Below, in pieces: positions 5,606 through 28,426 of a stretch of 64,000 nt of DNA. The position numbers were made by a program, and so were the translations under genes. The DNA is from an uncultured bacterium (GTDB lineage Bacteria; Patescibacteriota; Saccharimonadia; Saccharimonadales; Saccharimonadaceae): contig CAILCF010000001.1 in NCBI GenBank assembly GCA_903832635.1, positions 62,001-126,000 on the forward strand, read 5' to 3'. The notes beneath the pieces were generated by a model. The model made no database searches, was not told where the DNA came from, and was given only the letters and a program-made list of their open reading frames with translations. How positions within the stretch are numbered: position 1 is the first letter of the stretch; each line of letters starts with the position of its first letter.

Positions 5606-6007
5606 ATGCCAATCATTAAATCTGCCATTAAACGGGCAAAACAAACCGTAAAACGACGTGAACGCAACGTTGGTATAAAGCAAGATATTAAATCTGCAAC
5701 CAAGGCTTTTATAGCAAAACCATCTGCCGCTACTTTGGCTACTGCTCAATCTGAACTAGACACCGCTGTTAAAAAAGGTTTGTTGAAAAAAAATACTGTC
5801 GCCAGGCGTAAATCTCAGTTGCATGCAATTGCTAAATCTGCCGGTGTAAAACTGGCTGCAAAAAGCACCAAGAAGTCTACTGCAAAACCTGCAGCAAAAC
5901 CGGTTGCCAAATCCTCTTCCGCTGTACAGCGGAAAAAAACCACAACTAAAAAACCGGTTGCCAAATCCACCGTACGGCGGACAGCCGCTAAAAAAGCAAC
6001 CAAATAG
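5606..6007 (+). CDS. rpsT: 30S ribosomal protein S20 with long basic tail
   Basis: Residues 1-82 are a complete S20 (PIIKSAIKRAKQTVKRRERN, then LLKKNTVARRKSQLHAIAKS). Residues 83-133 are an added Lys/Ala/Thr-rich tail. The tail DNA repeats an AAACCGGTTGCCAAATCC unit twice and contains two GTAC-centred palindromes, TTCCGCTGT-ACAGCGGAA at 5917-5934 and an imperfect copy at 5966-5981. These encode SSAVQR and STVRR. The tail therefore looks like an expansion involving a dispersed palindrome. It is followed by a strong terminator. Confidence 0.93.
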   Translation: MPIIKSAIKRAKQTVKRRERNVGIKQDIKSATKAFIAKPSAATLATAQSELDTAVKKGLLKKNTVARRKSQLHAIAKSAGVKLAAKSTKKSTAKPAAKPVAKSSSAVQRKKTTTKKPVAKSTVRRTAAKKATK

Positions 6008-8805: not shown

Positions 8806-8834
8806 TTGACAAATATAAGCAAAAGTAGTATAAT
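8806..8834 (+). promoter_or_regulatory. Consensus promoter of cassette 1
   Basis: TTGACA (8806-8811), a 17-base spacer and TATAAT (8829-8834) match the sigma-70 consensus exactly. Transcription should begin near 8841, giving a leader of about 130 bases. Confidence 0.85.
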
Positions 8835-8840
8835 GGCCCC

Positions 8841-9290: not shown

Positions 9291-9628
9291 GCCACAAGCT
9301 CAAGGTCAGCGACATGGCGCCACCTACAAACCCCGATGCGGGTGCGTGGTTTTGCGCCATGGTCGGTGGCATGGCTGGACTCGTTCTAGCCTACAAGGTC
9401 ACTGTCGCGATCGGGTTTAACCTGACCGTGCACTGGATGGGACTTCCCGTCAGCATCAGCGGTCTCGTCAACTTCGTGATTGTCGTTACCGGGATTATCC
9501 TGATCGGCGCTCAATGCTACTATCTGGGTAGCCTAATCGACAAACGGCTTGTGCCGCGGGTCGAACAGGCCATCCTAGATGCAGCCGACAAGGCCGCCAA
9601 GCATCCTCAACACGGAGGAAAATGGTGA
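9287..9628 (+). CDS. Small membrane protein, cassette 1 gene B
   Basis: Not recognised. The 113 residues hold two transmembrane segments (about 22-42 and 55-80) and a basic, alanine-rich tail ending KAAKHPQHGGKW. An AAAGGAG site precedes the ATG, which overlaps the stop of gene A by four bases. Composition is GC-rich like its partner. The shared unit with gene A suggests a two-component membrane complex, but nothing in the sequence names a function. Confidence 0.7.
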   Translation: MSHKLKVSDMAPPTNPDAGAWFCAMVGGMAGLVLAYKVTVAIGFNLTVHWMGLPVSISGLVNFVIVVTGIILIGAQCYYLGSLIDKRLVPRVEQAILDAADKAAKHPQHGGKW

Positions 9629-9660
9629 ACGAGAGCAATCTCGTACACTTGGAAGGGTTC

Positions 9661-9715
9661 CCGTAGGAGAGGCTCGGTCTGCGCAATATGCGTAGAACCG
9701 ACGCCTCTCCTACGG
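9661..9715 (+). terminator. Large stem-loop closing cassette 1
   Basis: CCGTAGGAGAGGC pairs perfectly with GCCTCTCCTACGG over 13 bp, with TCGGT/ACCGA and CGCA/TGCG pairs inside. No T run follows, so it is not a standard intrinsic terminator. The outer arm CGTAGGAG/CTCCTACG and its flanks recur at the end of cassette 2. Confidence 0.6.
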
Positions 9716-9724
9716 CGTACAAAA

Positions 9725-9748
9725 CAGCGAATTATAATGACTTGATTT
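9725..9748 (+). repeat. Inverted terminal motif, right end of cassette 1
   Basis: The core GCGAATTATAATGACTTG follows the stem-loop directly and is nearly identical to the right end of cassette 2 (10687-10710). Its reverse complement resembles the left-end motif. Confidence 0.5.
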
Positions 9749-9774
9749 AATAACATAAAGAAATAATAAATCAA

Positions 9775-9789
9775 AAAGGTCCGTCCTTT
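9775..9789 (+). repeat. AAAGGTCCGTCCTTT dispersed near-palindrome, copy 1
   Basis: This 15-base element is followed by CTGTGGATAA. Related copies lie at 10725-10739, 13780-13816 and 13855-13869. The 363-base gene-free stretch 9629-9991 otherwise holds the cassette 1 stem-loop and right end, and the cassette 2 promoter and leader. Confidence 0.7.
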
Positions 9790-9813
9790 CTGTGGATAAG
9801 TAGTCTGCTTATC

Positions 9814-9842
9814 TTGACAAATAAGATGTAAAATATTAAAAT
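9814..9842 (+). promoter_or_regulatory. Promoter of cassette 2
   Basis: TTGACA (9814-9819), a 17-base spacer and TAAAAT (9837-9842). Only the boxes match the cassette 1 promoter; homology between the units starts just downstream. Confidence 0.8.
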
Positions 9843-9848
9843 AGTGTC

Positions 9849-9991
9849 TTACTTTGGTGATTTTTACTGGGTCGTAGTACTTAACAAATCGAATTATTAT
9901 TGTTCACTTGAGATGTCTGATATTTCGGATACTCGTGAACGAAACCCTTCAAAAAAGTTCTCTCTTTCCCCTAGTGAAAGGATTATTTTTC
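9849..9991 (+). other. Long 5' leader of cassette 2
   Basis: It is homologous to 8841-8972. A hairpin here pairs GTTCAC (9903-9908) with GTGAAC about 25 bases later, with a TCTGA/TCGGA inner stem. The corresponding hairpin in cassette 1 uses different bases, which hints at structure being kept while sequence drifts. The left inverted motif lies at 9886-9909. Confidence 0.5.
9886..9909 (+). repeat. Inverted terminal motif, left end of cassette 2
   Basis: It begins AAATCGAATTATTATTGTTC and matches the reverse complement of 10687-10710 at 19 of 24 positions, as in cassette 1. Confidence 0.5.
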
Positions 9992-10150
9992 ATGGAAATG
10001 CATAAGTCGGTAAGAGGTTTGCTGTTGATGACAACCAGCTTACTAGTCGTCATTAGCGCACCGCTTATAAGGTGGGCTATCCGTCGACGCACGCAACACC
10101 TCGATGCGCAAAAGAGCGCCCAACTACACGTCCGGAAACATATCCAGTAG
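9992..10150 (+). CDS. Short single-span membrane peptide, cassette 2 gene A
   Basis: Not recognised. The 52 residues begin MEMHKSVRGLLLMTTSLL, with one hydrophobic segment (about 9-29) followed by an Arg/His-rich tail. A GAAAGGA site precedes the ATG at a longish spacing. Its size and position parallel the first gene of cassette 1, but the sequences do not look alike. Confidence 0.55.
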   Translation: MEMHKSVRGLLLMTTSLLVVISAPLIRWAIRRRTQHLDAQKSAQLHVRKHIQ

Positions 10151-10168
10151 GTCTTGAAAGGAGTCGAC

Positions 10169-10300
10169 GTGGAACCTCAAGGGATGGGTCCCGTCACCGC
10201 TATGTGGTACATCTGTTGCGCCCTATGGTTGATCATTACCCACGGCACAATCGAGTGGCTCAAATCCACCACCAAACGGTGGTTCGTGATTGGAGATTGA
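10169..10300 (+). CDS. Very short membrane peptide, cassette 2 gene B
   Basis: Not recognised. This 43-residue frame starts at GTG behind a clear AAAGGAG site and encodes one hydrophobic segment (MWYICCALWLIITHG), then STTKRWFVIGD. It lies 18 bases after gene A, and its stop overlaps the upstream region of gene C. The ribosome binding site and tight packing are the only support. Confidence 0.5.
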   Translation: MEPQGMGPVTAMWYICCALWLIITHGTIEWLKSTTKRWFVIGD

Positions 10301-10301
10301 G

Positions 10302-10586
10302 GTGGCCAAGGCTAAGACCGACGACATGAAGCTGTTGAAAATTGGTGCCGTGATTGGCGCCATTTTTGGCGGTGCTTTGGTGTGGGTAGCTACACCTATC
10401 CACTTCAGGTTTGTGCCCATTCAGTCCTTGGGGTCAGCAGTCATCCAGATGATTGCCGGCCTGTTTATGGGGGCTGTCTTTGGCGGCTTCATCGGCACCT
10501 TGATAAAAATCCAGCTGACGCCGAAGCATGCCGATCCGTTCGACGTCGAAGTAGAAACCTGTAAAAACGGTGACTGCGAACAATAG
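10302..10586 (+). CDS. Small glycine-rich membrane protein, cassette 2 gene C
   Basis: Not recognised. The start is taken as GTG at 10302 behind a GGAG site at 10292; an in-frame TTG at 10290 is possible. The 94 residues hold two glycine-zipper-like membrane segments (IGAVIGAIFGGALVWVA and IAGLFMGAVFGGFIGTLI) and an acidic tail with two cysteines (ETCKNGDCEQ). Composition is GC-rich, as in cassette 1. Glycine-rich spans of this kind are common in oligomerising small membrane proteins. Confidence 0.65.
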   Translation: MAKAKTDDMKLLKIGAVIGAIFGGALVWVATPIHFRFVPIQSLGSAVIQMIAGLFMGAVFGGFIGTLIKIQLTPKHADPFDVEVETCKNGDCEQ

Positions 10587-10619
10587 TTTGGAGCAATCCC
10601 ATGAAGAAGGAAGGGTTTC

Positions 10620-10679
10620 CGTAGGAGTGGGCCGCTTGGGCTCGTGCATAATTGCACGGGGCTGGCGGCCCCTCCTACG
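10620..10679 (+). terminator. Large stem-loop closing cassette 2
   Basis: CGTAGGAG pairs with CTCCTACG, GGGCCGC with GCGGCCC, and GTGCA with TTGCAC at the tip. The flanks GGAAGGGTT upstream and AGCGAATTATAATGA downstream are shared with cassette 1. No T run follows. Confidence 0.6.
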
Positions 10680-10686
10680 CAATTAA

Positions 10687-10710
10687 AAGCGAATTATAAT
10701 GATTTGATTT
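10687..10710 (+). repeat. Inverted terminal motif, right end of cassette 2
   Basis: The core GCGAATTATAATGATTTG is nearly identical to the right end of cassette 1 and is related in inverse to the left end at 9886-9909. Confidence 0.5.
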
Positions 10711-10715
10711 AAAAA

Positions 10716-12143
10716 CTAGTTCAAAAAGGACGGACCTTTTCGGTCATTACTATCGATTATCGGATATGTTACCTCTTTACGACGCTCACGAATATCTATC
10801 GGATACTTACCGTTAAAACATGATGTAGAAAAAATCGACTCCTTCAATCCAGTGGCGTTAATCATGCCTTTGAATGACAGGTAGTTCAGGCTGGTCGAGC
10901 CCAGATATTTATTAATTTCGGCGATAGACCGATTAGCAGCAATTAAATCAGCTTGTTTTGGCAAATCAATTCCATAAAAATCCGGAAATTTAACCGGTGG
11001 TGAACTAACCAAAAAATGAACTTCACGGGCTCCTGCTTCAAATAACATCTTTACAATCTGGCGCGAAGTTGTCCCACGCACAATTGAATCATCAACAACT
11101 ATCACCCGCTTGCCTTTGATAATACCTTTTAACGGTGCCAGTTTTAGTTTTACACCTTGTTCGCGAATATGTTGTTCGGGTTCAATGAATGTCCGGTGAA
11201 TATAGCGGCTTTTAACTATGCCGGTTTCATATGGAATTCCGGTCGCCGTCGCATAACCTATGGCAACCGGGATAGCACTTTCGGGAACCGGTACTACTAT
11301 GTCTGCATCAATTTTGTATTCACGGGCCAATTCCTTACCAAAATTTTTCCTAACTTCATAAACCGACTTACCTAGCAGTTGACTGTCCGGGCGTGAAAAA
11401 TAAACGAATTCAAAGATATCAAGTTTTTGAATGCTTTTAATGATTTGTTTGCGACGCAGGCCGTTTTCATCGACAACAACCATCTCACCGGGATGTACGT
11501 CGCTGATATGCTTGGCGCCAATCGGATGAAAAGCACAAGTTTCCGACGCAAAAACCCAACCACCGTTCAATTTAGCAATTGAAAGCGGACGGATACCATG
11601 TTGGTCGCGGATGGCGATTAGTTTGTCTTTGTTCATGATAAGAATCGAAAACGCCCCGGTCATCAATGGAAAAATCTGCTGAACTGCTTTTTCCAAATCC
11701 ATACCATCCCGTGTCAAACAATAAATTGCCTCTGTTATAAGTTTAGAATCCGATGTTTCGGATGTATCAATACCCTTTTTCTTCAAAAAATCAGTTAGTT
11801 GTGCGGTTGTCGGTAAATTGCCATTATGAACCAACACGATTGAGCCGTCGGCAACTTCGATTGGCTGAGCGTGTTTTATATCACCCCCGGACGAAGTCGA
11901 ATATCGATTGTGTCCGACGGCAGCATGACCCTTCAGACTTTTTATTTCTTCTTCGCCGAAAACACTGGATACTAGGCCGTTATTTTTATAACAAAATATC
12001 TTTTTGCCGTCAGTCGATGCTATACCGGAACTTTCCTGCCCCCTGTGTTGAAGTGCATACAAACCAAAAAAAGTCAGGCGACTGACATCCAAGCCTTTAC
12101 CGTAAATACCGAATACGGCGCACTTCTCCCCAATGCTCCTCAT
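10716..12143 (-). CDS. purF: Amidophosphoribosyltransferase
   Basis: First step of de novo purine synthesis: glutamine plus PRPP to phosphoribosylamine. An N-terminal class-II glutaminase domain follows a seven-residue propeptide (Cys8 in EKCAVFGIYG; HRGQESSG; VGHNRYSTS), then the phosphoribosyltransferase domain with VIVVDDSIVRGTTSRQIV. The cysteines that bind Fe-S in Bacillus-type enzymes are mostly missing (KFPDFYGID). No other pur gene is in the window. The ATG follows a TATAAT box (12151-12156) by seven bases, so the mRNA is probably leaderless. The last residues RKGPSFLN are encoded by a dispersed repeat copy. Confidence 0.95.
   Translation of the reverse strand: MRSIGEKCAVFGIYGKGLDVSRLTFFGLYALQHRGQESSGIASTDGKKIFCYKNNGLVSSVFGEEEIKSLKGHAAVGHNRYSTSSGGDIKHAQPIEVADGSIVLVHNGNLPTTAQLTDFLKKKGIDTSETSDSKLITEAIYCLTRDGMDLEKAVQQIFPLMTGAFSILIMNKDKLIAIRDQHGIRPLSIAKLNGGWVFASETCAFHPIGAKHISDVHPGEMVVVDENGLRRKQIIKSIQKLDIFEFVYFSRPDSQLLGKSVYEVRKNFGKELAREYKIDADIVVPVPESAIPVAIGYATATGIPYETGIVKSRYIHRTFIEPEQHIREQGVKLKLAPLKGIIKGKRVIVVDDSIVRGTTSRQIVKMLFEAGAREVHFLVSSPPVKFPDFYGIDLPKQADLIAANRSIAEINKYLGSTSLNYLSFKGMINATGLKESIFSTSCFNGKYPIDIRERRKEVTYPIIDSNDRKGPSFLN
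10725..10739 (+). repeat. AAAGGACGGACCTTT dispersed near-palindrome, copy 2, inside purF 3' end
   Basis: It is in reverse orientation to copy 1 and within the last codons of purF, encoding KGPSF on the minus strand. Confidence 0.7.
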
Positions 12144-12167
12144 TACACCTATTATACTCTTTTTGGA

Positions 12168-13136
12168 CTATTCCCAACTGAATTCGCTATGGCCAAAATG
12201 ACCCCAGCGGGCTGTTCTTTCATAAATCGGCCGTTTCAAGTCCAAGTATTTAATTATCCCGTTAGGCGATAAGTCATAGCCCTCAACCTGATGCTTTTTA
12301 CCATCAACGACCGCGGTTGCTTCCAGTGGTTTGTCATATCCAATGGCGTACGCCAAATACACATACACCTCACGAGCGTCGTATTTTTTCAGATAATCAG
12401 TTGCGATTTTTCGAGCCATATAGGCCGCTGATCTATCGACTTTACTGGGGTCTTTGCCGCTAAATGCGCCACCGCCGATTGGTGTGCGTGGACCGTAATT
12501 ATCGACAACTAATTTACGGCCAGTCAGCCCAGCATCGGCCTCAAATCCGCCAACATTCCAATCACCTGCCGGGTTAATATGAAAATCAATATCATCGTAA
12601 ACTGCCAATTTTTCGTTTGGCAACCAAGCTTTTACCAAACGTTGCAGTTCTGCCGTAGGTGTTTTTTGAAAACTTGCGACAATACTTACGATTTTTCCGT
12701 CCTCTGTTGTGATTTGAGTTTTGCCATCGTATGGATATTTTTCATAAATATATTGGCAAAGTCGGCGTGCCAATACATATTCCAACGGCATCATTTCAGG
12801 AGTTTCGTCCGTTGCATAACCAACCATTATCCCCTGGTCGCCGGCTCCACCGATATCGACACCTTGGGCGATCTCAAAGCTTTGTTCGGCGATGTTTTCA
12901 ATAATCCGAACGTCACCTGCCAGTCTTTTAACAATTTGCGTAACATCAATTTTTTCGGTTTTTGATGTTACTTCACCCGTTACAAATACGGTTCCATGTC
13001 CACCGGCAACATCGACACCAACTCTTACGTCCGGGTCATTTACCAGATAGGCGTCCAATATAGCGTCCGAAATTTGATCGCAGATTTTATCCGGATGTTT
13101 TGGCGACACACTTTCTGCGGTTCTAAAATTTGACAT
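12168..13136 (-). CDS. metK: S-adenosylmethionine synthetase
   Basis: Makes SAM from methionine and ATP. The motifs SVSPKHPDKICDQISDA, GAGDQGIMVGYA (about 98-109) and GGGAFSGKDPSKVDRSAAY (about 222-240) are intact. At 322 residues it is shorter than the usual 380-400, apparently through trimmed loops rather than truncation, since both termini are conserved. A SAM-type riboswitch and a hairpin covering the ribosome binding site lie directly upstream, so SAM feedback is likely. It ends 24 bases before the purF start. Confidence 0.97.
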   Translation of the reverse strand: MSNFRTAESVSPKHPDKICDQISDAILDAYLVNDPDVRVGVDVAGGHGTVFVTGEVTSKTEKIDVTQIVKRLAGDVRIIENIAEQSFEIAQGVDIGGAGDQGIMVGYATDETPEMMPLEYVLARRLCQYIYEKYPYDGKTQITTEDGKIVSIVASFQKTPTAELQRLVKAWLPNEKLAVYDDIDFHINPAGDWNVGGFEADAGLTGRKLVVDNYGPRTPIGGGAFSGKDPSKVDRSAAYMARKIATDYLKKYDAREVYVYLAYAIGYDKPLEATAVVDGKKHQVEGYDLSPNGIIKYLDLKRPIYERTARWGHFGHSEFSWE

Positions 13137-14456: not shown

Positions 14457-15008
14457 CTACAAATTTAGTAATTGTTTCTTTTTATCTTCAAACTCTTGTT
14501 CGGTTATAGTGCCGTCATCGCGCAGTTTATCCAATTTGGCAATTTCATCGGCCGGATCAATAGCGGGCCCGGAACCGGCCTTGCCGGCTTTGTCAGCCTC
14601 GGCAACACGGTCCTCTATCATCTTGCAGAGTTCATGCGGCTTTTCCATCCCCTTGAACCAAATACCTTCGACATCATTGCCGGAAAAGACTTTGACCGTG
14701 CCATAGCCCAATAACCCGCCCCAAAGACTGACAAACGCATCTACGGTATTAATCTTGTCATATGATATCTGAGTCAAGGTTGTATTCAGCCAACCTGTCT
14801 TGTAATCAACTCCATTGTCGGCAACAGTTACCGATGTAAAGATAAAGCGCACCAACAGCATAACTAAAATTATCGACGCAATAACAACTGCCGCGACAAA
14901 GATGCCAAGATTACCAAAAAAACCAGTTGCTCCCGCCGCTACAATCACGACAATAACGTAAAAAACAAAAAGCGTACTGCTCATTCTGAAAGTTTTTTCA
15001 TCGTTCAT
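14457..15008 (-). CDS. Membrane protein with bacterial PH-like and SHOCT domains
   Basis: After two N-terminal membrane spans (about 12-50) comes a bPH2-like domain (TSVTVADNGVDYKTGWLNTT to VKVFSGNDVEG) and a C-terminal SHOCT motif (IAKLDKLRDDGTITEQEFEDKKKQLL). SHOCT often marks oligomerising membrane proteins. The start is the ATG at 15008, six bases after a TATAAT box (15015-15020), so the mRNA is probably leaderless. A 5' fragment of a sister copy, with the same promoter, lies at 16708-16794. Confidence 0.75.
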   Translation of the reverse strand: MNDEKTFRMSSTLFVFYVIVVIVAAGATGFFGNLGIFVAAVVIASIILVMLLVRFIFTSVTVADNGVDYKTGWLNTTLTQISYDKINTVDAFVSLWGGLLGYGTVKVFSGNDVEGIWFKGMEKPHELCKMIEDRVAEADKAGKAGSGPAIDPADEIAKLDKLRDDGTITEQEFEDKKKQLLNL

Positions 15009-15087
15009 GATTGTATTATACACTTACAAACGCAAACGGCCCTCAAGGGATAGCTAGCTTATATCTTAACCGGACGTCGTATCTATT

Positions 15088-17886: not shown

Positions 17887-20208
17887 TTAATTTGTCATTT
17901 TTGCATACAATTTTTTCTGAAAGGCAAAGAATATTGAACGAATTCGATCCACATCACCTAGTGATTGTTCGGCATTTGCAATTGCATGATATTTCAAATT
18001 CAAAAGAACTGGCAATTTATCTAAATCAAGTTCCTCAACACCCTTATCTTCGTATTTTGATAATATGAAATCTAAAAATTCTTGTTGCTTTTCATCTAAA
18101 CCTTCAAGTATTTTGGACTTAGCGTGCTCTACCCGTTCCACTCTTGAGATTGGTTGAATTAAGAATGAAATGTATGTCAAGACATCAAATAAATCGCTTT
18201 GCTCGGCGTCAATCATTTTTTGCAATATTTCTAATTCGTCTTTGCCATAGCCAATTTCTGCAATTTTATCCAAAAATGCTTTTCGTGTCGTTGGATTTGA
18301 CCAAATTTCCCTTAGTTCATCTTCACTTTTAAAGAATTCTGTCATTGCCCCAAACATATTATCCAAAAATTCTTGAACAGTGATTGGCTTGCCATCGGCG
18401 CCCCAGAATGAAGTAGAGATCATATGCTGAATTTCACGTTCTTTACCATCCCGCAATTTTATTTTCAGCTTTACCTTTGGCTCGTCACCTTCACCGTCCG
18501 GCGGTTTTGAACCATAATCGGGCAATGGTTCATTGACTTCGGTTGGCGGTTTTAGCACATCGGCTGTAGTCTGATCAATTGGCTCGCCATCCCATTCTGG
18601 GTCAGAAAAATGATGGTATGCATCGACGAAATCGTAAATCGTAAAATATTCTTTGCCATCAAAAAGTCTAGTCCCTCGTCCAATAATCTGTTTGAACTCG
18701 ATTATGGAGTTTATTGGACGCATCAAGACAATATTTCTAATGTTGCGGGCATTGACACCAGTTGAAAGTTTTTGCGAAGTGGTCAGGATAGTCGGGATAG
18801 TTTTCTCGTTATCTTGGAATTCCCGCAAGAATTGTTCGCCCCGTGAACCATCATTGGCTGTTACGCGCACGCAATAATTTGGGTCTTTACTTTTATTCAT
18901 TTGATTTACTAAATCACGGATTGCTGCGGCATGGTCTTGGGTTGCACAAAATATTATTGTTTTTTCGTTTTGGTTTATTTCGTCCAATAACACTCGAACC
19001 CTTTTAGCTTCGCGCTCTTTGATGACAATAATTCGGTTAAAATCTGGTTCTTCGTAAATTCTGCCTTCTTCGACTTCGCCTTCGACAATTTGGTCATCCG
19101 AAGTATAGACATAGTCATCAAGAGTGGTTTTAATTCGTTTGACTTTAAAAGGTGTTAAGAAGCCGTCATTTACACCCTCCTTGAGTGAATAGGTATAGAC
19201 TGGCTCACCAAAATATTTATAAGTGTCAATATTATCTTTTCGCTTTGGTGTAGCTGTTAGCCCTATTTGAACCGCAGGTGAAAAATGTTCCAAAATACCG
19301 CGCCAATTACCCTCGTCATTAGCGCCACCTCGATGACATTCGTCAATGATGATCATGTCAAAAAAGTCAGCTGGGTAATCTCCGAAATATGGCGTTCCGT
19401 CCGGCCCACTCATAAATGTTTGAAAAATCGTAAAGTAAACACTACCGCTCGTTGGAACACAGCCTTTTTTACGAATTTCAAGCGGTTCGATACGAACTTT
19501 TGCATCTTTATCAAACGCAGCAAAATCATTCATTGCTTGACCGGCTAAAATATTTCTATCAGCCAAAAATAGGATTCTTGGGCGTCGCTCCCCTTTGTTT
19601 TTCAAATTCCAGCGAGTTTGAAAAAGTTTCCATGCAATTTGAAATGCGATAAATGTTTTACCCGTTCCTGTTGCTAGTGTTAGCAAAATACGCTTCTTAT
19701 CTTCTGCTATGGCGTTCAGTGTATTATTTACGGCTATTTCTTGATAATACCTGGGTTTTTTGCCGGTTCCACCATCCTCGAAAGGCACTTCATCGAATTT
19801 TTCTTTCCATTCGTTTTGATTAGAAAAAGTTTCACTCCATAGTTCATCGGGAGTTGGGAATCGTTCTAAATACCACTCCTTACCTGTTCGCATCCCCATT
19901 TCATATATTTCTTTTCCGTTAGTTGTATAGGCGTAGTCAACCTGTAGTTTACTCGCATAAGACTTAGCTTGCGCTACCCCTTCGGACGCTAGCAACCCCT
20001 CTGCCTTGGCCTCAATTACTCCGATTTTTCGATTTTTATAGACTAAAATATAATCAGCTATCTCAGGCCTACTGCGGAGCCCACCTGTTTGGATTTTCCC
20101 GTCAGTGATACGAAACTCGCGGAGGACTCTAGACTCTTCAATCTCACCCCAGCCACTAGATTTTAGTTTAGGATCAATATATTCGGCGCGGGTTTCCGAT
20201 TCGTTCAT
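17887..20208 (-). CDS. hsdR: Type I restriction enzyme R subunit
   Basis: ATP-driven DNA translocase and nuclease of a type I R-M complex. The N-terminal nuclease domain carries IEAK (Glu66, Lys68). Helicase motifs follow: LATGTGKT (178-185), IIIDECHRG (about 286-294), GLTATPKRKD and QIIGRGTRLF. A C-terminal EcoEI-like domain (about 590-773) follows. The length, 773 residues, fits EcoEI-type subunits. The ATG lies 34 bases after the preceding unknown gene. Confidence 0.95.
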   Translation of the reverse strand: MNESETRAEYIDPKLKSSGWGEIEESRVLREFRITDGKIQTGGLRSRPEIADYILVYKNRKIGVIEAKAEGLLASEGVAQAKSYASKLQVDYAYTTNGKEIYEMGMRTGKEWYLERFPTPDELWSETFSNQNEWKEKFDEVPFEDGGTGKKPRYYQEIAVNNTLNAIAEDKKRILLTLATGTGKTFIAFQIAWKLFQTRWNLKNKGERRPRILFLADRNILAGQAMNDFAAFDKDAKVRIEPLEIRKKGCVPTSGSVYFTIFQTFMSGPDGTPYFGDYPADFFDMIIIDECHRGGANDEGNWRGILEHFSPAVQIGLTATPKRKDNIDTYKYFGEPVYTYSLKEGVNDGFLTPFKVKRIKTTLDDYVYTSDDQIVEGEVEEGRIYEEPDFNRIIVIKEREAKRVRVLLDEINQNEKTIIFCATQDHAAAIRDLVNQMNKSKDPNYCVRVTANDGSRGEQFLREFQDNEKTIPTILTTSQKLSTGVNARNIRNIVLMRPINSIIEFKQIIGRGTRLFDGKEYFTIYDFVDAYHHFSDPEWDGEPIDQTTADVLKPPTEVNEPLPDYGSKPPDGEGDEPKVKLKIKLRDGKEREIQHMISTSFWGADGKPITVQEFLDNMFGAMTEFFKSEDELREIWSNPTTRKAFLDKIAEIGYGKDELEILQKMIDAEQSDLFDVLTYISFLIQPISRVERVEHAKSKILEGLDEKQQEFLDFILSKYEDKGVEELDLDKLPVLLNLKYHAIANAEQSLGDVDRIRSIFFAFQKKLYAKMTN

Positions 20209-20242
20209 ATATTTATCATACAGTATTAATTATACTTTCGAT

Positions 20243-20803
20243 TTAATCAATCGGATCATATCGATAAAAATTTTGACCGTGATCGTTATAATCTCTTGCA
20301 CCTTCTGACAATGGCAATATTTTTGACGCTAAATCTTTTGTAATATATATCATAAATACAGCATCTTGATAGTTAAAATAACTTTTGTCTATAGAATGAT
20401 GAAATTCGTGTTTTGCGTTTGTATATATCTTATTACATTCTTCCAATTCATCGAATAATTTAGGGTCAAGATGCTTTTGCAGTTTCCTGATTTTTTTTCC
20501 AAGAGGCCCTCTGAACCATTTTATTCTATTTTTTTTATCTTCTAGCATGAATTTTAGCAACTGATCTATATAATCACCACAAAAGCGCATGATATTCCTG
20601 GTGCCATATTTAGGTAGCTGGCTAATTTCATGTTGAATATAATATAGGGGTCTTTTAGGTTTTGAGCCGAGAACTTTTGATAGCTCCAGTAATACTTTTT
20701 CTCTTTGATTACTTTTTATCAAATTAATTTGTTTATATATCGATTCGATTTTTTCATCGTCAAATAACTTCTCTGACAATATTTCAATGTTTTCATTAAG
20801 CAT
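20243..20803 (-). CDS. Unknown helical protein inside the type I R-M operon
   Basis: Not recognised. The 186 residues look entirely helical and charged, with a conserved-looking NAKHEFHHS stretch (about 130) and an aromatic tail (GARDYNDHGQNFYRYDP). It starts two bases after hsdS and precedes hsdR. HEPN-like or AbiV-like accessory proteins have a similar size and helical build, but no clear RxxxxH motif is visible, so no function is claimed. Confidence 0.6.
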   Translation of the reverse strand: MLNENIEILSEKLFDDEKIESIYKQINLIKSNQREKVLLELSKVLGSKPKRPLYYIQHEISQLPKYGTRNIMRFCGDYIDQLLKFMLEDKKNRIKWFRGPLGKKIRKLQKHLDPKLFDELEECNKIYTNAKHEFHHSIDKSYFNYQDAVFMIYITKDLASKILPLSEGARDYNDHGQNFYRYDPID

Positions 20804-20805
20804 TA

Positions 20806-21864
20806 TTACAATTCACCCGTGAAAGCTTTTTGCAGAATTGATTCTTTTAGTTCTTCCAAGTCGGCTATTTTTTGTTTATAAATTGATTCGAGTTTTTTTG
20901 TTTTAACAGAAAGCTCGTCGAGCTTGGCGACTATGGATTTTTGTTCGTCTAGAGTTTTTGGAATATTAACCTGGATAGAGTAGACGTCGTTTCGATTAAT
21001 CCCAGGTTTAACCCCTTTTGCTAATTTTGTAAGCTTGAGTGTTGATAATAGATAGTGAATAAAATTTAAATCGTGCTGTTTATTATCAAATGTCACAAAA
21101 TAAGTTACATCAAGTGGCCAAAATTTATCTTCAGTGATATTTAGTTCACCTGCTGAGCCTTTTCTACCAATAATAATACTAGGTCTATCGACATGGAATT
21201 TATCACTTCTGCTTTTCTCACCATTTGCGCCATATACTGGGTATAGTGCATTATTATCCCTATATTTTTTATCTAGTGGTTTACCATACTCCAACTTAAT
21301 AAATTCACCCAAACTTTTTTCATCCCAAACTTTTCCTGGATTCGTAAAAACACTCTGCAAATACGATTCAAAAAGTTCTTTGGAGTTTTCTAGATTTTTT
21401 TCAGTGTTTTCCTTCGCTTTTACTATATTATCAAAAACCCCATCTAGGATTTTTACGATGCGCTGCTGTTCTGAAAGCGGTGGAATTAAAATTTTAAGAT
21501 CCCTAAAGTCATTTTTTTGCAAATGTTTTATCGTTGCACCTTTAAATAACTTTTTACCAATATACTTCCGGTTCAAAACAAGATAATGGTATAGATACCG
21601 AATATCCACATCGTCAGTTGTTTTTATTGACCACGTATCTGTAGAATAGGCAGATTTTCCATCAAAATAATGCACAAAAAAATTTCCACCAGTTGGGAGA
21701 AAGATATTTTCCCCATCCGTTAAGTAGTTGTCAATTCTTTTTACATTAAATCCGCTGACAAAGAATGGGTATATTCCGTCATTATTACCCTTTGATCTCA
21801 AAATAGACTTTTTATTTTCTATAATAATCTCGCCAAGTTTTTTTGTTTGACGATCATTTTTCAT
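20806..21864 (-). CDS. hsdS: Type I restriction enzyme specificity subunit
   Basis: Determines DNA target recognition. Two target-recognition domains are seen, each ending in the typical helix: IPPLSEQQRIVKILDGVFD (about 102-120) and IPKTLDEQKSIVAKLDELS (about 299-317). The second is followed by IADLEELKESILQKAFTGEL. The length, 352 residues, is on the short side but has two complete halves. The ATG overlaps the stop of the Shedu-like gene by four bases. Confidence 0.93.
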   Translation of the reverse strand: MKNDRQTKKLGEIIIENKKSILRSKGNNDGIYPFFVSGFNVKRIDNYLTDGENIFLPTGGNFFVHYFDGKSAYSTDTWSIKTTDDVDIRYLYHYLVLNRKYIGKKLFKGATIKHLQKNDFRDLKILIPPLSEQQRIVKILDGVFDNIVKAKENTEKNLENSKELFESYLQSVFTNPGKVWDEKSLGEFIKLEYGKPLDKKYRDNNALYPVYGANGEKSRSDKFHVDRPSIIIGRKGSAGELNITEDKFWPLDVTYFVTFDNKQHDLNFIHYLLSTLKLTKLAKGVKPGINRNDVYSIQVNIPKTLDEQKSIVAKLDELSVKTKKLESIYKQKIADLEELKESILQKAFTGEL

Positions 21865-23015
21865 CTTAAGTTCTCTTCTAAATTACCTATAGTATTCTTC
21901 ATCTTGTCTATTAGGTCAGTGTAAGTTAATAATTCGATGTTTAAATTTGATTTTAACATCTGAAAATTTTCTTTCCAAAGTGGATCAATATTGCGAGTCC
22001 CAATTATTATAATACATTTGTGGATTGCCTTTTTATCTATACCGAGAACCTGTATTTCTTCAATTCGAGCATTCTCATACCATTTCTTATATTGCAATAT
22101 CTGTGGAATTGCTCTAGATAATTCAGGAGATAAATGATATTCAGTCGTTATCCCATCATTCGTTGTAGGGCTTTGTATGATACGGAAGATTTCAGCACTT
22201 GGCGACTTAAGTTCAATCAATACATGATTGTCTAAATTCTGTTCTGCCAAAATATCAAATCGCTTTCGCATAAATTCACCTTCTCTTTTTGGGTCAACAT
22301 ACTCAATCCCAAATATGAGACACCGCTGCTTACGAAAAATTCCCTTCTTCTCATCAAGCCAATTTTGAATGAACGTCTCATTTTTGTCTAAATTATTTTC
22401 TAAAAAACTCAAATGAGATTTTAGAATTTCAATTTGAATTCGAGGTATATTTTCAACAAATGCATATTGCATAGATTCGTTGGTAAGATATTTTGAGAAC
22501 GAGTCGATAAGTTCGTTGCATGAAACTACGCAACCTTCCTCACCTGCACCTTCCTTCACATTCTCAATAGAATTAATAATATTCTTTTGAGTTTCTTCTC
22601 CTAAATTTTTTAGAGCATCTAAAATATTTTTTTCAGATGCATTGTTCATTATAAAATCATTTTTTTGATCCTCTGTATATTCAACGTTCTTGAGACTAAT
22701 ATTTTGACCGAAAAAGGCCTTTGCTCTACCAACTGTTTTGTCCTGAATATTTTTACAAAACAACCTGTAAGCATTCATGTTAACGAGAAATCCTTGTTCG
22801 ACTTTTTCAAAACTTTCTACTGAAGAATCTAGAGTAAAAAATATCTTAATATCTGGATATTCTTTCTGAAAATTTAAAATATTTTTTGAATACAAAAACA
22901 TTCGGTTTTTTCGTTTGTGACCAAAAAGGGTCTTGAAATCGCTGTTTTTATAAAAAAATAGTCTCTGATCACCACCGTATACTACTTCTTGAAAATCAGA
23001 TTCTGAAAATTTCAT
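21861..23015 (-). CDS. Shedu-like (DUF4263) nuclease in the type I R-M operon
   Basis: The C-terminal domain holds KRFDILAEQ (Asp254), HVLIELKSPS (Glu268, Lys270), then SRAIPQILQYKKW (Gln305) and IIIIGTRN followed by IELLTYTDLIDKM. This order matches the Shedu SduA nuclease family, a PD-(D/E)XK anti-phage effector. The N-terminal 250 residues are helical and unassigned. It overlaps both hsdM (four bases) and hsdS (four bases), so it is translated with the methylase and specificity subunits. The Shedu label is from motif reading and needs a profile search. Confidence 0.7.
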   Translation of the reverse strand: MKFSESDFQEVVYGGDQRLFFYKNSDFKTLFGHKRKNRMFLYSKNILNFQKEYPDIKIFFTLDSSVESFEKVEQGFLVNMNAYRLFCKNIQDKTVGRAKAFFGQNISLKNVEYTEDQKNDFIMNNASEKNILDALKNLGEETQKNIINSIENVKEGAGEEGCVVSCNELIDSFSKYLTNESMQYAFVENIPRIQIEILKSHLSFLENNLDKNETFIQNWLDEKKGIFRKQRCLIFGIEYVDPKREGEFMRKRFDILAEQNLDNHVLIELKSPSAEIFRIIQSPTTNDGITTEYHLSPELSRAIPQILQYKKWYENARIEEIQVLGIDKKAIHKCIIIIGTRNIDPLWKENFQMLKSNLNIELLTYTDLIDKMKNTIGNLEENLR

Positions 23016-24463
23016 AGTATTTCATCAATATCCTTCAAAATTAGTTCAGCGTCTCTGTCTAGGCCATTGATTGAAATTAGTATCTCTTTTGGCTCACGTA
23101 GGGTTGCTTCATAGCCTTTATTTGGATTCTTGACTGATAAATCAAAGGTTGTTTGATCGATAGTATTTACACCTATACCCCACGAATTATCGCTATCTGC
23201 TTTGACTTTTTGAAGTTCAACAAATTGCGCCAAATCAGCTTCATTCAATGGATTACCTTTGCCTAGGTTTCGGGCAAGATTCAGTTGGTAATACCAAACT
23301 TTTTGCGTTGGTGAGCCTTTTTCGAAAAATAGAACTACGGTTTTAACACCAGCGCCTTGGAATGCACCTCCCGGTAAATCTAGTACTGTGTGTAGATTAC
23401 AATTTTCTAGGAGAAGTTTGCGTAAAGAGACTGAAGCATTGTCGGTGTTAGAAAGAAATGTATTCTTGATTACGATACCTGCACGACCACCAGCTTTCAG
23501 AATTTTGATGAAGTGTTGCAGAAAAAGGGAGGCTGTCTCACCGGTTTTGATCGGAAAGTTTTGCTGAATTTCGCGGCCAATACCCGCACCAAAAGGAGGA
23601 TTAGCTAAGATTATATCGTAACGATCTTTTTCTTGAATGTCATTAATATTATCTGCCAATGTATTCATATGCCTTATATTTGGCGTTTCAATACCATGTA
23701 GAATCATGTTCATAATGCCGATGACATAGGCTAATGACTTAATCTCATTGCCGTAAAAAGTTTTGTTCTGTAAGATTTCCATTTGGTTAGATGAAAGTTT
23801 AGATTGATTCTCTGTTAGATAGTTATAGGCTTCAACTAAGAAGCCGGCGCTACCACAGGCACCGTCGTAAATAGTTTCGCCAATCTTTGGGTCAACCACT
23901 TTGACGATTGTTTTAATGAGTGGGCGTGGCGTGTAGTATTCACCGCCGTTTCGACCAGCGTTTCCCATATTCTTAATCTTTGCCTCGTACAAATGCGATA
24001 GTTCGTGTTTTTCTTCATACAGACGAAAGTGCATCTCATCAACTGTGTTTAGTATTTCTCGGAGCTTGTATCCACTAGAGATTTTATTTTTAAGTTCATG
24101 AAAAATCTCCCCAATTTTGTATTCAATTGTATTTGGGTCTTCGGCACGGAATTTTTTAAGATATGGAAAAAGTTTGTCATTTACGAAATCTTTCAAATCA
24201 TCGCCGTCTAATGCTTTGTTGTGATCTAATTTACCATCACCGTTTTTGGGGCATGCCCAGTTATTCCATTGGTACTCAGATTGTAAAATGTAGTCAAATA
24301 GACGACCCGATAATTCCGCTTCGGTCTTTTTTGTCTCTTCTAAATCATCAAGGTATTTTAAAAACAGAATCCACGAAGTTTGCTCGACATAGTCCAATTC
24401 TGTCCCACATCCAGAGTCAGTATGAAGTATATTATCAATATTTTTGAAAGATTGTTCAAACAC
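23012..24463 (-). CDS. hsdM: Type I restriction enzyme methylase subunit
   Basis: N6-adenine methyltransferase that protects host sites. HsdM_N helical domain (about 1-150), SAM-binding motif I YDGACGSAGFLVEAY (about 199-213) and catalytic motif IV LANPPFGAG (about 285-293). The 483 residues are a normal length. It begins at GTG behind an AGAGG site, 50 bases after the HigA-like gene, and opens the R-M operon. Confidence 0.95.
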   Translation of the reverse strand: MFEQSFKNIDNILHTDSGCGTELDYVEQTSWILFLKYLDDLEETKKTEAELSGRLFDYILQSEYQWNNWACPKNGDGKLDHNKALDGDDLKDFVNDKLFPYLKKFRAEDPNTIEYKIGEIFHELKNKISSGYKLREILNTVDEMHFRLYEEKHELSHLYEAKIKNMGNAGRNGGEYYTPRPLIKTIVKVVDPKIGETIYDGACGSAGFLVEAYNYLTENQSKLSSNQMEILQNKTFYGNEIKSLAYVIGIMNMILHGIETPNIRHMNTLADNINDIQEKDRYDIILANPPFGAGIGREIQQNFPIKTGETASLFLQHFIKILKAGGRAGIVIKNTFLSNTDNASVSLRKLLLENCNLHTVLDLPGGAFQGAGVKTVVLFFEKGSPTQKVWYYQLNLARNLGKGNPLNEADLAQFVELQKVKADSDNSWGIGVNTIDQTTFDLSVKNPNKGYEATLREPKEILISINGLDRDAELILKDIDEIL

Positions 24464-24513: not shown

Positions 24514-25584
24514 CTATTTTGATTCATTATTCATTACCAACTTTCTGTGCAGATGCTGATATGCACCAAACGGTAGCCATCTGTTATTCTTTAGCCTACC
24601 CACAACTATGCCCACATCAACCCCCTCTTGATTTGCAAAATCTTTAATGCTTTTTTCACTAAAATCTAGGTTCGTTACAAAACTTCTGTATGAATCGTCA
24701 GGTATTAGTATATTAGCCGCAAATTCATCAGCCCGTAACTCATTTGACGTCTTTTCGCCACCACTCGTAAAACTGATAAACTGGTCTTTTTTACCGTGTA
24801 ACAACACATGGCCTATTTCGTGAAATAGTGTAAACCAGAACTTATCTGCATCACGACCATATATACTTACTTGTATTAACGGGTTATCCCCTACCCAACG
24901 TGTTGCACCACTGGCTTTGGTTCCCTTTAGATGTTGGACGGCGACAAGTCCAACCCCCGCATCTGCAAAATCTTTTTGTATTTTTTCAAAGAAACCTTTT
25001 TCTAATGAACTTGTCATCTCTCGAATTTTAGGCAATAGTTCTTTCAACATATTTTGGTTATATTCATTTAAAACTAGCTGCCCTGAATCTATTTCACCGC
25101 ATCGTAGCCACGCTGCCAATGATCCGGCGTTCACATTCTTGTTATACCCACGCCTATAAGCAACAGCCTCTGTGGTACGAACTGAACCCAATGAGTTTAC
25201 GCCGAAGAATTTCCAAAGATTTATGATTTTTTCGACTTTTTTTGTTGTTCGCTCAACCCTACCCAGCTTTACGAGCTCTGCATATGGGAAATTATCGAGC
25301 TCTTCTAAATCCTCTTGAGCTCTCGATTCTTGTTCAAGACGAGCTTTTGTTGTTCGAAAATTTTTATCAAGATTAATCCAAAATGTAGCACTGCCACCAA
25401 GTGCATTTTCAAACAATAGCGCCGTATCCGCTGTGATAGATGCCTCGCCATTAATAATCAAGCTGATATGTTTTTCTGATAACCCTGTTCGTTCTGCAAG
25501 GAGCTTCTGGGACATTCCTAAGATATCCAGCGTTTTCTGGACAGTCTTGCCTGGATGAATTGCTTTGTTGGGTTGGTAAACCAT
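24514..25584 (-). CDS. HigA-type antitoxin fused to ImmA/IrrE metallopeptidase
   Basis: Residues 1-95 are an XRE-like helix-turn-helix of the HigA/VapI type (IHPGKTVQKTLDILGMSQ, then GLSEKHISLIINGEA). The C-terminal part carries an HEIGHVLLH zinc-protease motif (about 254-262) and DEFAANILIP, as in ImmA/IrrE proteins. It follows the HigB-like toxin by about 18 bases and precedes hsdM. It probably autorepresses the operon and may be cleaved or regulated by its own peptidase domain. Confidence 0.88.
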   Translation of the reverse strand: MVYQPNKAIHPGKTVQKTLDILGMSQKLLAERTGLSEKHISLIINGEASITADTALLFENALGGSATFWINLDKNFRTTKARLEQESRAQEDLEELDNFPYAELVKLGRVERTTKKVEKIINLWKFFGVNSLGSVRTTEAVAYRRGYNKNVNAGSLAAWLRCGEIDSGQLVLNEYNQNMLKELLPKIREMTSSLEKGFFEKIQKDFADAGVGLVAVQHLKGTKASGATRWVGDNPLIQVSIYGRDADKFWFTLFHEIGHVLLHGKKDQFISFTSGGEKTSNELRADEFAANILIPDDSYRSFVTNLDFSEKSIKDFANQEGVDVGIVVGRLKNNRWLPFGAYQHLHRKLVMNNESK

Positions 25585-25602: not shown

Positions 25603-25941
25603 TTAGTGATAATCTATACAAAGTTTTACGATTACTATACGCTTTATTGTTTTATGGTTGTCTATTCGAAAGTCCGGATCGTCGTCATGATCTGGACGGA
25701 AAATAAGTCTGTGTGTTTTGCTGATATCTACGGCGAAATGGTCTTTCCATTCGGCCTGAAGGGGATGTGGTCGAAGAGTGGGTGGTATATCAGCGCCACT
25801 ATCTGCAGCCTCTAGGATATTCAGTACTTGTATTATGTCATCAGCGTTACAATGTGCATTCTGCTTACGGATTAGTTTTTCGAGTAAAGCAACATCATTT
25901 GCTGTTCTCTCTAATTTATCCGTAGCAAAGCTTACTTTCAT
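25603..25941 (-). CDS. HigB/RelE-like toxin
   Basis: Ribosome-dependent mRNA interferase type of a type II toxin-antitoxin pair. The 112 residues include LRPHPLQAEWKDHFAVDISK and THRLIFRPDHD, typical of the HigB group. Toxin-first gene order is characteristic of higBA. The ATG overlaps a TATAAT-like string and so uses the AAAGGG just upstream as its site; the promoter must lie further up, by the palindrome at 25979-25993. Confidence 0.88.
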   Translation of the reverse strand: MKVSFATDKLERTANDVALLEKLIRKQNAHCNADDIIQVLNILEAADSGADIPPTLRPHPLQAEWKDHFAVDISKTHRLIFRPDHDDDPDFRIDNHKTIKRIVIVKLCIDYH

Positions 25942-26060: not shown

Positions 26061-26711
26061 TTAACATGTTACAACCTCGTAATCTGATTTTGTTACAATA
26101 ATATGATCGATTAAATTAACGCCAAGAAGGTTACCTGCCCTACTTAACCTCTCTGTTATTTTTATATCTGCCATACTAGGCTTAGTATTGCCACTCGGGT
26201 GATTATGGGCAACAATAATACTAGCAGCACGGTCAGTTATGGCGTCGGCGAAAACCTCACGCGGATGAACCAAGCTGCTATTTAAAGTTCCGATTGTGAT
26301 TGTGCGTTTGGCGATTAGTCGATTAGCCCCATCTAGTGACAAAACGACGAAATGTTCTTGTTTTTTATCACGGATATCTGACAATTGTTCGACGGCCTTT
26401 TCGGGCGAATCGATGATTGGTTGATCACTATCAATCAAATAACGCCGTGATAATTCCAATGCTGCCAAAATTTCCGTAATCCGCGCTGGGCCCATCCCGG
26501 TCACCTGTTTTAGCTGTTCGTAGGTGATATCAGCACCGTTTTTTTGTAGTAGTTTCAGAGTATCCTTGGCGATTTTACTGACATCAGCCTGTTTGTTACC
26601 ACTGCCTATTAGTGCTTGCAACAGTTCAAAATCAGAAAGTGAAGCTGGGCCTTTTGACTGTAGTTTCTCACGCGGTCTGTCCTGTATTTTCATTTGAGAC
26701 ATTCGAACCAT
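26061..26711 (-). CDS. radC: RadC family (JAB domain) protein
   Basis: An N-terminal helix-hairpin-helix segment (GMGPARITEILAALELSRR, about 71-89) and a C-terminal JAB metalloprotease-like domain with the HNHPSGNTKPSMAD motif (about 172-185). The role of RadC is unsettled; a repair role is doubted, and it is often near defence or mobile genes, as here. The ATG at 26711 lies six bases after a TATTAT box, consistent with a leaderless mRNA. An internal Met at 26693 matches the usual N-terminus. Confidence 0.92.
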   Translation of the reverse strand: MVRMSQMKIQDRPREKLQSKGPASLSDFELLQALIGSGNKQADVSKIAKDTLKLLQKNGADITYEQLKQVTGMGPARITEILAALELSRRYLIDSDQPIIDSPEKAVEQLSDIRDKKQEHFVVLSLDGANRLIAKRTITIGTLNSSLVHPREVFADAITDRAASIIVAHNHPSGNTKPSMADIKITERLSRAGNLLGVNLIDHIIVTKSDYEVVTC

Positions 26712-26752
26712 AAGACAATAATATCATAAATTGCCTAAGCTTATTTTAAGTA

Positions 26753-26821
26753 TCAAATATTCGCTACCTTTATCAAAGCGCGTTTAACTAGCAACCACGG
26801 CTCGGCGCGGAAGAGTTTCAT
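26753..26821 (-). pseudogene. Remnant copy of the holA 3' end
   Basis: On the minus strand it reads MKLFRAEPWLLVKRALIKVA then NI and stop, against MKLSRAEPWMLVERALIKVA then NI and stop at the true holA end (27509-27577). Most differences are at third codon positions. The gene 26835-27479 lies between the two copies. Confidence 0.85.
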
Positions 26822-26834
26822 AAAAAGGAAGTAC

Positions 26835-27479
26835 TTAAATCTTTGGCTCGTCAGGATTATCAGTGATAGTTTTTACGGCTTCAACTACACTACCTACCAT
26901 CTGTTGTGCAGTTTCTTGACCAGACTCTGTGAAAGGGACGCCGATAAACGCGGCAATTTTTTTGCCGAGATCAACGTTAGGGATTTTGTTGGAGATACTG
27001 AATGAATTAATCAATGCCTTTTGTTTGTCTGATAAATCAATTGTCGTACCGTCCTTGAAATACATAATTAAATGCGCCACTTGCTTTGTTCCGGATGAAT
27101 TAGCGTTACCAATTGAAAAGCCCGTTCCCGTGTTACTGTTTTGTTGTGTCTGTACAATTGCAGTAACGACCTGCACTCGGCTAACATCAGAAAAAGTAAC
27201 AGATTTGTTGGTACCGCCAATCAATCTTTTAATGTTGATATCGACAGTATTTTTCGTTTTATCGAGTGTCAAATTGACCGTCTTGCGAAATAACAGCGTA
27301 GCTATCCCCACCAATATGAAAATACCACCAACTACATAGACTAAAGTTGGCTGATTTATCTGATCTTTAAAGATAAATATCAAAACGGCAATGATAATAA
27401 ACATTGGGGCATAAATCAGATTGGCATAATTATTTTCTACTGCGACCAAACGATCAGCTGTTTCGGTTGTTATTTTCAT
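26835..27479 (-). CDS. Membrane protein with a PH-like cytosolic domain, unknown function
   Basis: Not recognised. Two membrane spans (about 20-40 and 45-65) are followed by a beta-rich domain (TVNLTLDKTKNTVDINIKR to AHLIMYFKDGTTIDLS). An AAGGAG site precedes the ATG, 30 bases after holA. The gene is bracketed by the holA end and a diverged copy of that end, so it probably arrived by recombination. Confidence 0.6.
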   Translation of the reverse strand: MKITTETADRLVAVENNYANLIYAPMFIIIAVLIFIFKDQINQPTLVYVVGGIFILVGIATLLFRKTVNLTLDKTKNTVDINIKRLIGGTNKSVTFSDVSRVQVVTAIVQTQQNSNTGTGFSIGNANSSGTKQVAHLIMYFKDGTTIDLSDKQKALINSFSISNKIPNVDLGKKIAAFIGVPFTESGQETAQQMVGSVVEAVKTITDNPDEPKI

Positions 27480-27508
27480 TTATTTCTCCTTTTTATTAAT
27501 AATCTTGT

Positions 27509-28426
27509 TTATATATTAGCAACTTTTATCAATGCTCGTTCAACTAACATCCAGGGTTCGGCACGGGATAGTTTCATATCGTCGTCCAGTTCGGTAAATA
27601 TCGAAATTATTTTTGATGCGCCGGACTTGCCTATGCGTTTTGCGATTGGCGAAAGTTTTGAGACGACGTATGGATGGATTGCAAAATCCTTAGCAACATT
27701 ATCGTTCCGCCGTACGGCGGATGACGCTGATGCTACCACTAAAAGCTGGAAAGCCTGGGACGATAGTAATGCCGTTAAACGATAAACATCCTCGGTTTGT
27801 TCCAAGATTTTCAGTATTTCCATCAGGTTTTTTGTATCGCCACGAAGAGCGGTTTCAAACAAATTAAAAACATTCTCGACCGGGTTTGGTTCGACGATGT
27901 TTTTAATACTTTCTTCTGTAATATCATCTGTTAGTGACAATTTTTCCAGCGCATAAAATAACTGCCATTGGTCAATTCCAACCCAATTTACTAGAGTTTG
28001 AATAAGTTTTTTATTCAGATTTAAACCCCTTTTTTCGGCCTCTGACGCAACCCATTTTTCAGCCACGCCAACATCACGGTCGGACCACTGCACAAACTCA
28101 TGAACGTCTGCGATTTTTAGCAATAACTTGTATGTTGAAGTCCGTTTATCGGGCTTTGGTTCGACCAGCACAATGTGAATATCGTCGGAAATTTTGTCCG
28201 TCCAATCCCCCAGCACCGGCCAAACCGATTTGTTTTCGGACAGGTTACGAATTACAACCAAACGCTTTTCCGCGAACAAGCTGACACCCATAAATATGTC
28301 AGGCAACTGCGAAACTTGCAATTCACTACCCTCGATTTTCTCTACATTCCCATCAAAGTCAGAAATAATATCATCCAGAGCCCGCTGAATTTCAAACGAA
28401 TTCTCACCTACCAATAAAGTAATCAT
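27509..28426 (-). CDS. holA: DNA polymerase III delta subunit
   Basis: Clamp-loader subunit that opens the sliding clamp. The 305 residues show the HolA AAA-like fold: LLVGENSFEIQRALDDII at the N-terminus, FMGVSLFAEKRLVVIRNL (about 46-63), NPVENVFNLFETALRGD (about 192-208) and a helical collar. A perfect 16-base palindrome (27706-27721) is carried in frame, encoding SAVRR. A TATACT box lies eight bases before the ATG, so the mRNA is probably leaderless. Confidence 0.9.
   Translation of the reverse strand: MITLLVGENSFEIQRALDDIISDFDGNVEKIEGSELQVSQLPDIFMGVSLFAEKRLVVIRNLSENKSVWPVLGDWTDKISDDIHIVLVEPKPDKRTSTYKLLLKIADVHEFVQWSDRDVGVAEKWVASEAEKRGLNLNKKLIQTLVNWVGIDQWQLFYALEKLSLTDDITEESIKNIVEPNPVENVFNLFETALRGDTKNLMEILKILEQTEDVYRLTALLSSQAFQLLVVASASSAVRRNDNVAKDFAIHPYVVSKLSPIAKRIGKSGASKIISIFTELDDDMKLSRAEPWMLVERALIKVANI
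27706..27721. repeat. GTAC-centred palindrome inside holA
   Basis: TCCGCCGTACGGCGGA is a perfect 16-base palindrome. Relatives lie at 5917-5934 and 5966-5981 (inside rpsT), 34031-34046 (intergenic), and in looser form at 2646-2661 (pnp leader). Confidence 0.8.

Follow-up and report, generated by a model that had tools for sequence, protein, structure and literature searches.

Diverged copies of the holA 3' end point to a probable insertion hotspot in a group of Saccharibacteria

The 3' end of holA is best read as an insertion hotspot in the group of Saccharibacteria studied here. We analysed a window of 64 kb (positions 62001-126000 of contig 1) from a 0.79 Mb draft genome in five contigs, G000, in which the intact holA gene is followed by a gene for a putative membrane protein and then by a second, diverged copy of its own last codons. 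The divergence between the two tails is mainly synonymous, the tail of holA is incongruent with the body of the gene, and relatives carry different cargo. We suggest, with a probability of roughly 0.6, that recombination within the tail of holA has brought in DNA here recurrently; in each event a new tail would have taken the place of the old one, which would have been displaced downstream.

Results

A repeat search identified a pair of 66-nt direct repeats at 26757-26822 and 27513-27578, which are 80% identical (53/66) and separated by 756 nt from start to start (Table 1). In an ungapped 66-mer scan of the whole window on both strands, the runner-up to this pair reached 34/66, and local alignment of the two tails scored 76, eight shuffles giving 32 at most. 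The 13 mismatches are scattered along the repeat. Translated from an ATG at 26821 to the stop at 26753, the remnant reads MKLFRAEPWLLVKRALIKVANI and corresponds to the last 22 residues of HolA, the intact gene ending in ...MKLSRAEPWMLVERALIKVANI before its own stop. A DNA search of the G000 genome found no third copy of the tail, and a peptide search gave two matches only. Of 29 holA tails listed, most encode a conserved motif, DDDMKLSRAEPWLLIERAL, at the end of the gene.

Table 1. Features of the 64-kb window, in window coordinates
Feature	Position	Strand	Remarks
rpsT	5606..6007	(+)	next to holA and convergent with it in most relatives; 21.5 kb from holA in G000
Type I restriction-modification gene set	17887..24463	(-)	Pfam, PADLOC
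hsdR	17887-20208	(-)	also at this locus in G007
186-aa ORF	20243-20803	(-)	within the type I restriction-modification gene set
hsdS	20806-21864	(-)	also at this locus in G007
Shedu SduA-like gene	21861-23015	(-)	Pfam SduA_C above cut-off; PADLOC SduA
hsdM	23012-24463	(-)	type I restriction-modification; also at this locus in G007
HTH and IrrE-like metallopeptidase gene	24514-25584	(-)	Pfam, PADLOC
HigB/YafQ-like toxin	25603-25941	(-)	Pfam match below cut-off
radC (JAB domain)	26061..26711	(-)	first island gene behind the remnant; Pfam
Flank P	26709..26752	(-)	promoter-like stretch of 43-44 nt, from remnant to radC; same stretch in G007 and G024
Remnant B, second holA 3' end	26753..26821	(-)	22 codons and stop; 66-nt match at 26757-26822
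Cargo gene, putative membrane protein	26835..27479	(-)	between the two tails; intact ORF, 214 aa
holA (DNA polymerase III delta subunit)	27509..28426	(-)	intact ORF, 305 aa; Pfam DNA_pol3_delta and DNA_pol3_delta_C above cut-off

The holA gene of G000 also has a 12-nt in-frame insertion that is not present in six aligned relatives. A palindrome, CCGCCGTACGGCGG, lies at this insertion (27707-27720) and has a copy with one mismatch close to the end of rpsT (5967-5980). A dispersed short repeat, TAGTAGTTGGTA, occurs at four sites of the window when one mismatch is allowed (28521, 28535, 28613 and 34006; 0.55 expected), and is also found immediately before radC in G007 and G017 (L034 5616; L059 4723, 8003).

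Over the 63 coding bases compared, the remnant and the holA tail differ at 14, with 11 synonymous differences and 3 changed codons. The first-pass annotation of this DNA had placed the remnant at exactly these coordinates (26753-26821) and had described it as encoding the same C-terminus as holA with mainly synonymous changes, and on these points it was right. A codon simulation in which all differences were free predicted 8.8 changed codons, and three or fewer arose in 0.005% (P = 0.00005), so that a local tandem duplication followed by fully free decay is rejected. With only half of the differences free, the pattern of the G000 remnant was not unusual (P = 0.12), and the same model was rejected for stray tails of two other genomes, B of G003 (P = 0.0048) and B1 of G017 (P = 0.0024). 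So few changed codons argue that most of the divergence arose while both tails were functional; the two tails of G000 would have diverged for the most part as working holA ends in different lineages.

The holA tail also looks as though it has been exchanged between species. We regressed the identity of the tail (the last 21 codons) on that of the body of the gene for pairs in which 57 or more tail columns could be aligned. Of 325 holA pairs, taken from one gene with a short tail, G024-G007 (tail 0.89, body 0.65) and G000-G007 (0.87 and 0.64) had the greatest excess of tail identity, and the sister genomes G000 and G003 had a tail deficit (0.76 against 0.86 for the body, z -2.68) that is among the lowest of the 325; because the pairs are non-independent, these residuals are to be read as ranks and not as probabilities. 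In 33-nt windows, G000 and G003 are 96% identical until approximately 100 nt before the end of holA and 75-78% identical from there on, and the last ~95 nt of the G000 gene look recombinant relative to its sister. The drop is moderate, and another 66-nt window of holA, at the 12-nt insertion of G000, is lower (66%).

At only 66 nt, the tail is too short for its ancestry to be traced in a tree, and we used an identity matrix instead; the matrix row of the second stray tail of G017, B2, is disregarded, and B2 rests on the tail scan, the peptide search and a shuffled local alignment. The remnant is about equally similar to the functional tails of G000, G003, G024 and G007 (49-52/66). The annotation had derived it from the functional holA of a related strain rather than from a local duplicate that decayed. 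The rejection of fully free decay favours that origin. It had further predicted an ancestor with the remnant's allele as the true end of holA; this allele is not the end of the working gene in any relative examined, its best functional match, in G024, reaching 52/66. Moreover, the remnant matches the tail of the sister G003 at 49/66 and the present G000 tail does so at 51/66; being no closer, the remnant cannot be called the native end. The first-pass account is thus partly supported, in outline.

The holA gene was present in 56 of 60 relatives; 30 stretches were retrieved, and 29 genomes, G000 included, had a readable holA end. In 24 of these 29 loci rpsT faces holA, its match starting 110-1,525 nt past the holA stop, and none of the 24 contains a stray tail clearly above shuffles. 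The five exceptions are G000 and G003, where the two genes are 21.5 kb and 12 kb apart, G007, where rpsT is not reached within 14 kb of holA, and two genomes with a contig end shortly after holA, G024 (914 nt) and G002 (121 nt). In a further genome, G017, holA is split across contigs and rpsT lies ~8.2 kb behind the first stray tail. Gene content between holA and rpsT is enlarged, and differs, in G000, G003, G007 and G017. Starting with the gene at 14457-15023 and as far as rpsT, the genes common to the sisters G000 and G003 are in the same order, and the variable slot is therefore the part that adjoins holA. By comparison, the holA-rpsT site is empty in G008, the sister of G007 (support 97), which lacks a stray tail. 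We also note that both G000 and G003 have ppdK, purF and metK (window 6097-13136) in the interval from holA to rpsT, a position that is probably due to a relocation in the ancestor of these sisters.

Stray holA tails are present in G000 (one), in its sister G003 (one, 1.2 kb behind holA) and in the more distant G017 (two, B1 and B2). A possible vestige in G007, seen by eye, scored 32, the same as the shuffle maximum of 32, and is not counted. The left neighbours of the stray tails are the 214-aa membrane protein in G000, a 393-aa protein on the opposite strand in G003, and a 121-aa protein (B1) and a HAD-like gene (B2; sub-threshold Pfam match) in G017; on the right are flank P and radC in G000, a DUF2726 gene in G003, and an NYN gene (B1) and a GIY-YIG gene (B2) in G017. 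The remnants of G000 and G003 begin at the same point, ATGAAACT, with no holA homology upstream. B1 of G017 reaches ~43 nt further upstream into holA, and this extension is most similar to G008, a member of its group (none of 300 shuffles did as well), which would suit a native tail that was displaced. A CTC leucine codon occurs in the stray tails of G000 and G003, in B1 of G017 and in the unproven G007 vestige; it is found in none of the 16 functional tails with leucine at that position, which use CTA, TTA or CTG. A Ser-to-Phe change is common to the G000 remnant and B1. This sharing points to common ancestry across two subgroups, and suggests a common origin of the stray tails rather than independent displacement of native tails; either tail-bearing arrays would have been transferred, or the tail itself would be the exchanged joint. 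In a family-wide sample of 151 genomes, 74 genomes matched, G007, G017 and G024 not being among them, and a stand-alone short frame occurred in G000 and G003 only. The two tail patterns had no match in IMG/VR viral contigs, and the holA region had none in plasmids.

The protein encoded by the cargo gene of G000 is hydrophobic close to its start and has no Pfam match above cut-off, and a genus search found the gene in 1 of 28 genomes, G000 alone. Its counterpart in G024 (L033 41-874) encodes a protein without detectable similarity to that of 26835-27479 except at the very end. The two genes do share a leader at the start codon, and their last ~34 nt (...DEPKI and stop) are also common to both, as if the body had been exchanged and the 3' end retained.

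Flank P connects the remnant to the island behind it. In G007 the same stretch lies between the stop of the functional holA and the first island gene, 2 nt from that stop as against 1 nt from the stop of the G000 remnant; the remnant therefore occupies the position of a holA end. In G024, flank P is found 3' of the cargo gene without any remnant. These arrangements fit an earlier state of holA, flank and island, in front of which the present tail and cargo would then have been inserted. The G007 tail beside flank P is nearer to the present tail of G000 (58/66) than to the remnant (51/66), which argues that tails and flanks have probably recombined more than once.

At the holA locus, G000 and G007 have in common radC, the toxin gene, the HTH/IrrE gene, hsdM, hsdS and hsdR. 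Identity between the two genomes is higher for hsdR (87%) and radC (82%) than for fpg (78%) and holA (68%), and does not exceed that of fpg for higB (77%), higA (73%), hsdM (69%) and hsdS (54%). The Shedu SduA-like gene of G000 sits between hsdM and hsdS, inside the type I restriction operon. The first-pass annotation had predicted an ancestor with holA next to radC. No relative examined has holA directly adjoining radC; in G007 a toxin-antitoxin pair and an NYN gene intervene, and the distance from holA to the start of radC is 2.3 kb. Across the genus, radC occurs in 8 of 28 genomes, mostly away from holA; that of G008 is elsewhere in the genome, beside another restriction system. When the radC islands at other sites (G008, G012, G002, G011 and G004) were searched for repeats, none had the copy of a gene tail before radC, and the tail copy therefore seems to belong to the holA site and not to the radC island. 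Upstream of its radC-restriction island, G008 has an array of small ORFs, mostly on the minus strand (L116 5100-8700), with imperfect repeats of 44-84 nt that have palindromic parts.

Discussion

We suggest that incoming DNA from other strains would bring a holA tail together with further genes and would recombine within the conserved end of holA. The conserved motif encoded there would serve as the homology anchor, and a crossover at this point would swap the tail, so that holA would keep working with an exchanged tail and the cargo would land behind it. At its other end the imported DNA would join without homology, leaving the previous tail downstream as a remnant. In G000, the present tail and the membrane-protein gene would have been placed before an older tail, itself followed by the defence island that begins with radC. 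A non-homologous join would be consistent with the lack of holA homology upstream of the remnant in G000 and G003, the opposite join lying in holA. Saccharibacteria are naturally competent (PMC10633639), and each of the five genomes searched has the ComEC and DprA families. We infer natural transformation as the route, and likewise the one-sided illegitimate join, the order of events and the enzymatic route. The first-pass annotation had proposed that the cargo gene was brought in by recombination at holA; the apparent exchange of tails and the stray tails beside different genes agree with this, for the locus as a recurrent slot rather than for one event. Counting against import are the CTC codon shared by stray tails, the presence of flank P without a remnant in G024, the lack of holA-radC adjacency, the moderate size of the G000-G003 tail drop, and the G000 codon pattern if half of the differences were free (P = 0.12).

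Integrative elements are classically recognised by a partial copy of a gene 3' end bordering the foreign DNA, and genomic islands that tyrosine integrases insert at gene 3' ends leave such a partial copy beyond the insert. The holA locus resembles these islands in having part of the target gene beyond the insert. Site-specific integration, with the holA 3' end as attachment site, an element-borne copy restoring the gene end and the remnant as the far attachment site, would also accommodate the common starting point of the G000 and G003 remnants at ATGAAACT and the CTC codon common to stray tails. However, the slot has no match to the tyrosine integrase family PF00589, the sole G000 match being outside the window, and Pfam identified no integrase, transposase or serine recombinase among 20 proteins, most of them from slots; the element would have to have lost its integrase or moved in trans. 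In addition, the repeats are only 80% identical, their left ends vary (B1 of G017 extends ~43 nt further into holA), and viral contigs do not match either tail pattern. We consider this explanation unlikely, although it is the one that we take most seriously beside import anchored in the tail.

A codon absent from functional tails is common to stray tails of G000, G003 and G017, whose neighbours all differ, as it would be if the tail itself were the travelling joint. We can thus also imagine, as a speculative and rather improbable idea, that the stray tails themselves act as integrase-free attachment sites, each displaced tail being a new homology anchor; recombination at any copy would reshuffle the genes on both sides and make the slot increasingly prone to recombination.

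The same codon, seen in stray tails and in 0 of 16 functional ones, and the Ser-to-Phe change of the G000 remnant and B1 would follow equally from one old tail duplication in the ancestor of the group, with the genes on either flank of the second copy replaced later. Here, the empty site of G008, sister of G007 in the same group (support 97), is hard to accommodate, as are the flanks of the stray tails, both of which differ among species in every case, and a mostly synonymous divergence is unexpected for a long-dead copy. We think such a duplication improbable. A small functional gene, a 22-codon ORF from its ATG, or a regulatory element under selection is a very improbable reading of the remnant. 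The ATG and open frame of G000 and G003 and the synonymous bias would suit a gene, but in B1 of G017 the ATG is missing and the frame continues into decayed holA upstream, B2, with an ATG at its start, is out of frame, and there is no special folding (z -1.71 to 1.26). An integron cassette array was rejected, as neither strand of either tail copy forms an attC-like hairpin (z -1.71 to 1.26). Finally, G000 is a draft in five contigs, and an assembly artefact is scarcely credible given the like structure in G003 and G017 and the 13/66 differences between the two G000 copies.

Recombination anchored in the holA tail would have parallels in better-known systems. A 2017 study (PMC5635113) describes integrase-less hotspots in which variable genes lie between conserved core genes, with recombination of the flanking core gene, and which tend to adjoin recombination and repair genes. 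As in those hotspots, the holA slot has variable genes between two core genes and no integrase among the slot proteins examined, an apparent recombination signal is seen in the flanking gene, the genomes searched have competence genes, and the neighbours are holA and fpg. In contrast to the clean double recombination described in that study, diverged tail copies stay in the holA slot as traces of the events, and our comparison spans species where theirs was made within one. For Vibrio T6SS arrays, another paper (PMC5361080) reports sequential displacement with 3' ends retained, for which homology-facilitated illegitimate recombination was proposed, as well as orphan 3' regions of Rhs genes. 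The likeness lies in a conserved 5' anchor, a new 3' part with cargo and an old 3' end moved downstream; the difference is that Vibrio exchanges an effector domain or immunity gene, whereas at holA a replication gene would exchange its conserved tail, with no evident use for the piece displaced. Unlike the islands of tyrosine integrases, the holA slot has no tyrosine integrase gene, and its repeats are diverged with variable left ends.

We found no description of an integration hotspot in Patescibacteria in the literature searched, and the matches listed for holA in the Saccharibacteria literature appear to be matches to word starts, such as 'holarctica'. As far as these searches go, the locus is undescribed. 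It is a known kind of genome change with an unusually clear trace. A genome-reduced lineage with competence genes could gain defence and membrane genes in this way beside a core replication gene with no evident integrase, and insertion events at holA would leave a trace that can be read. Insertions of this kind might be sought in other draft genomes by way of stray copies of conserved gene tails.
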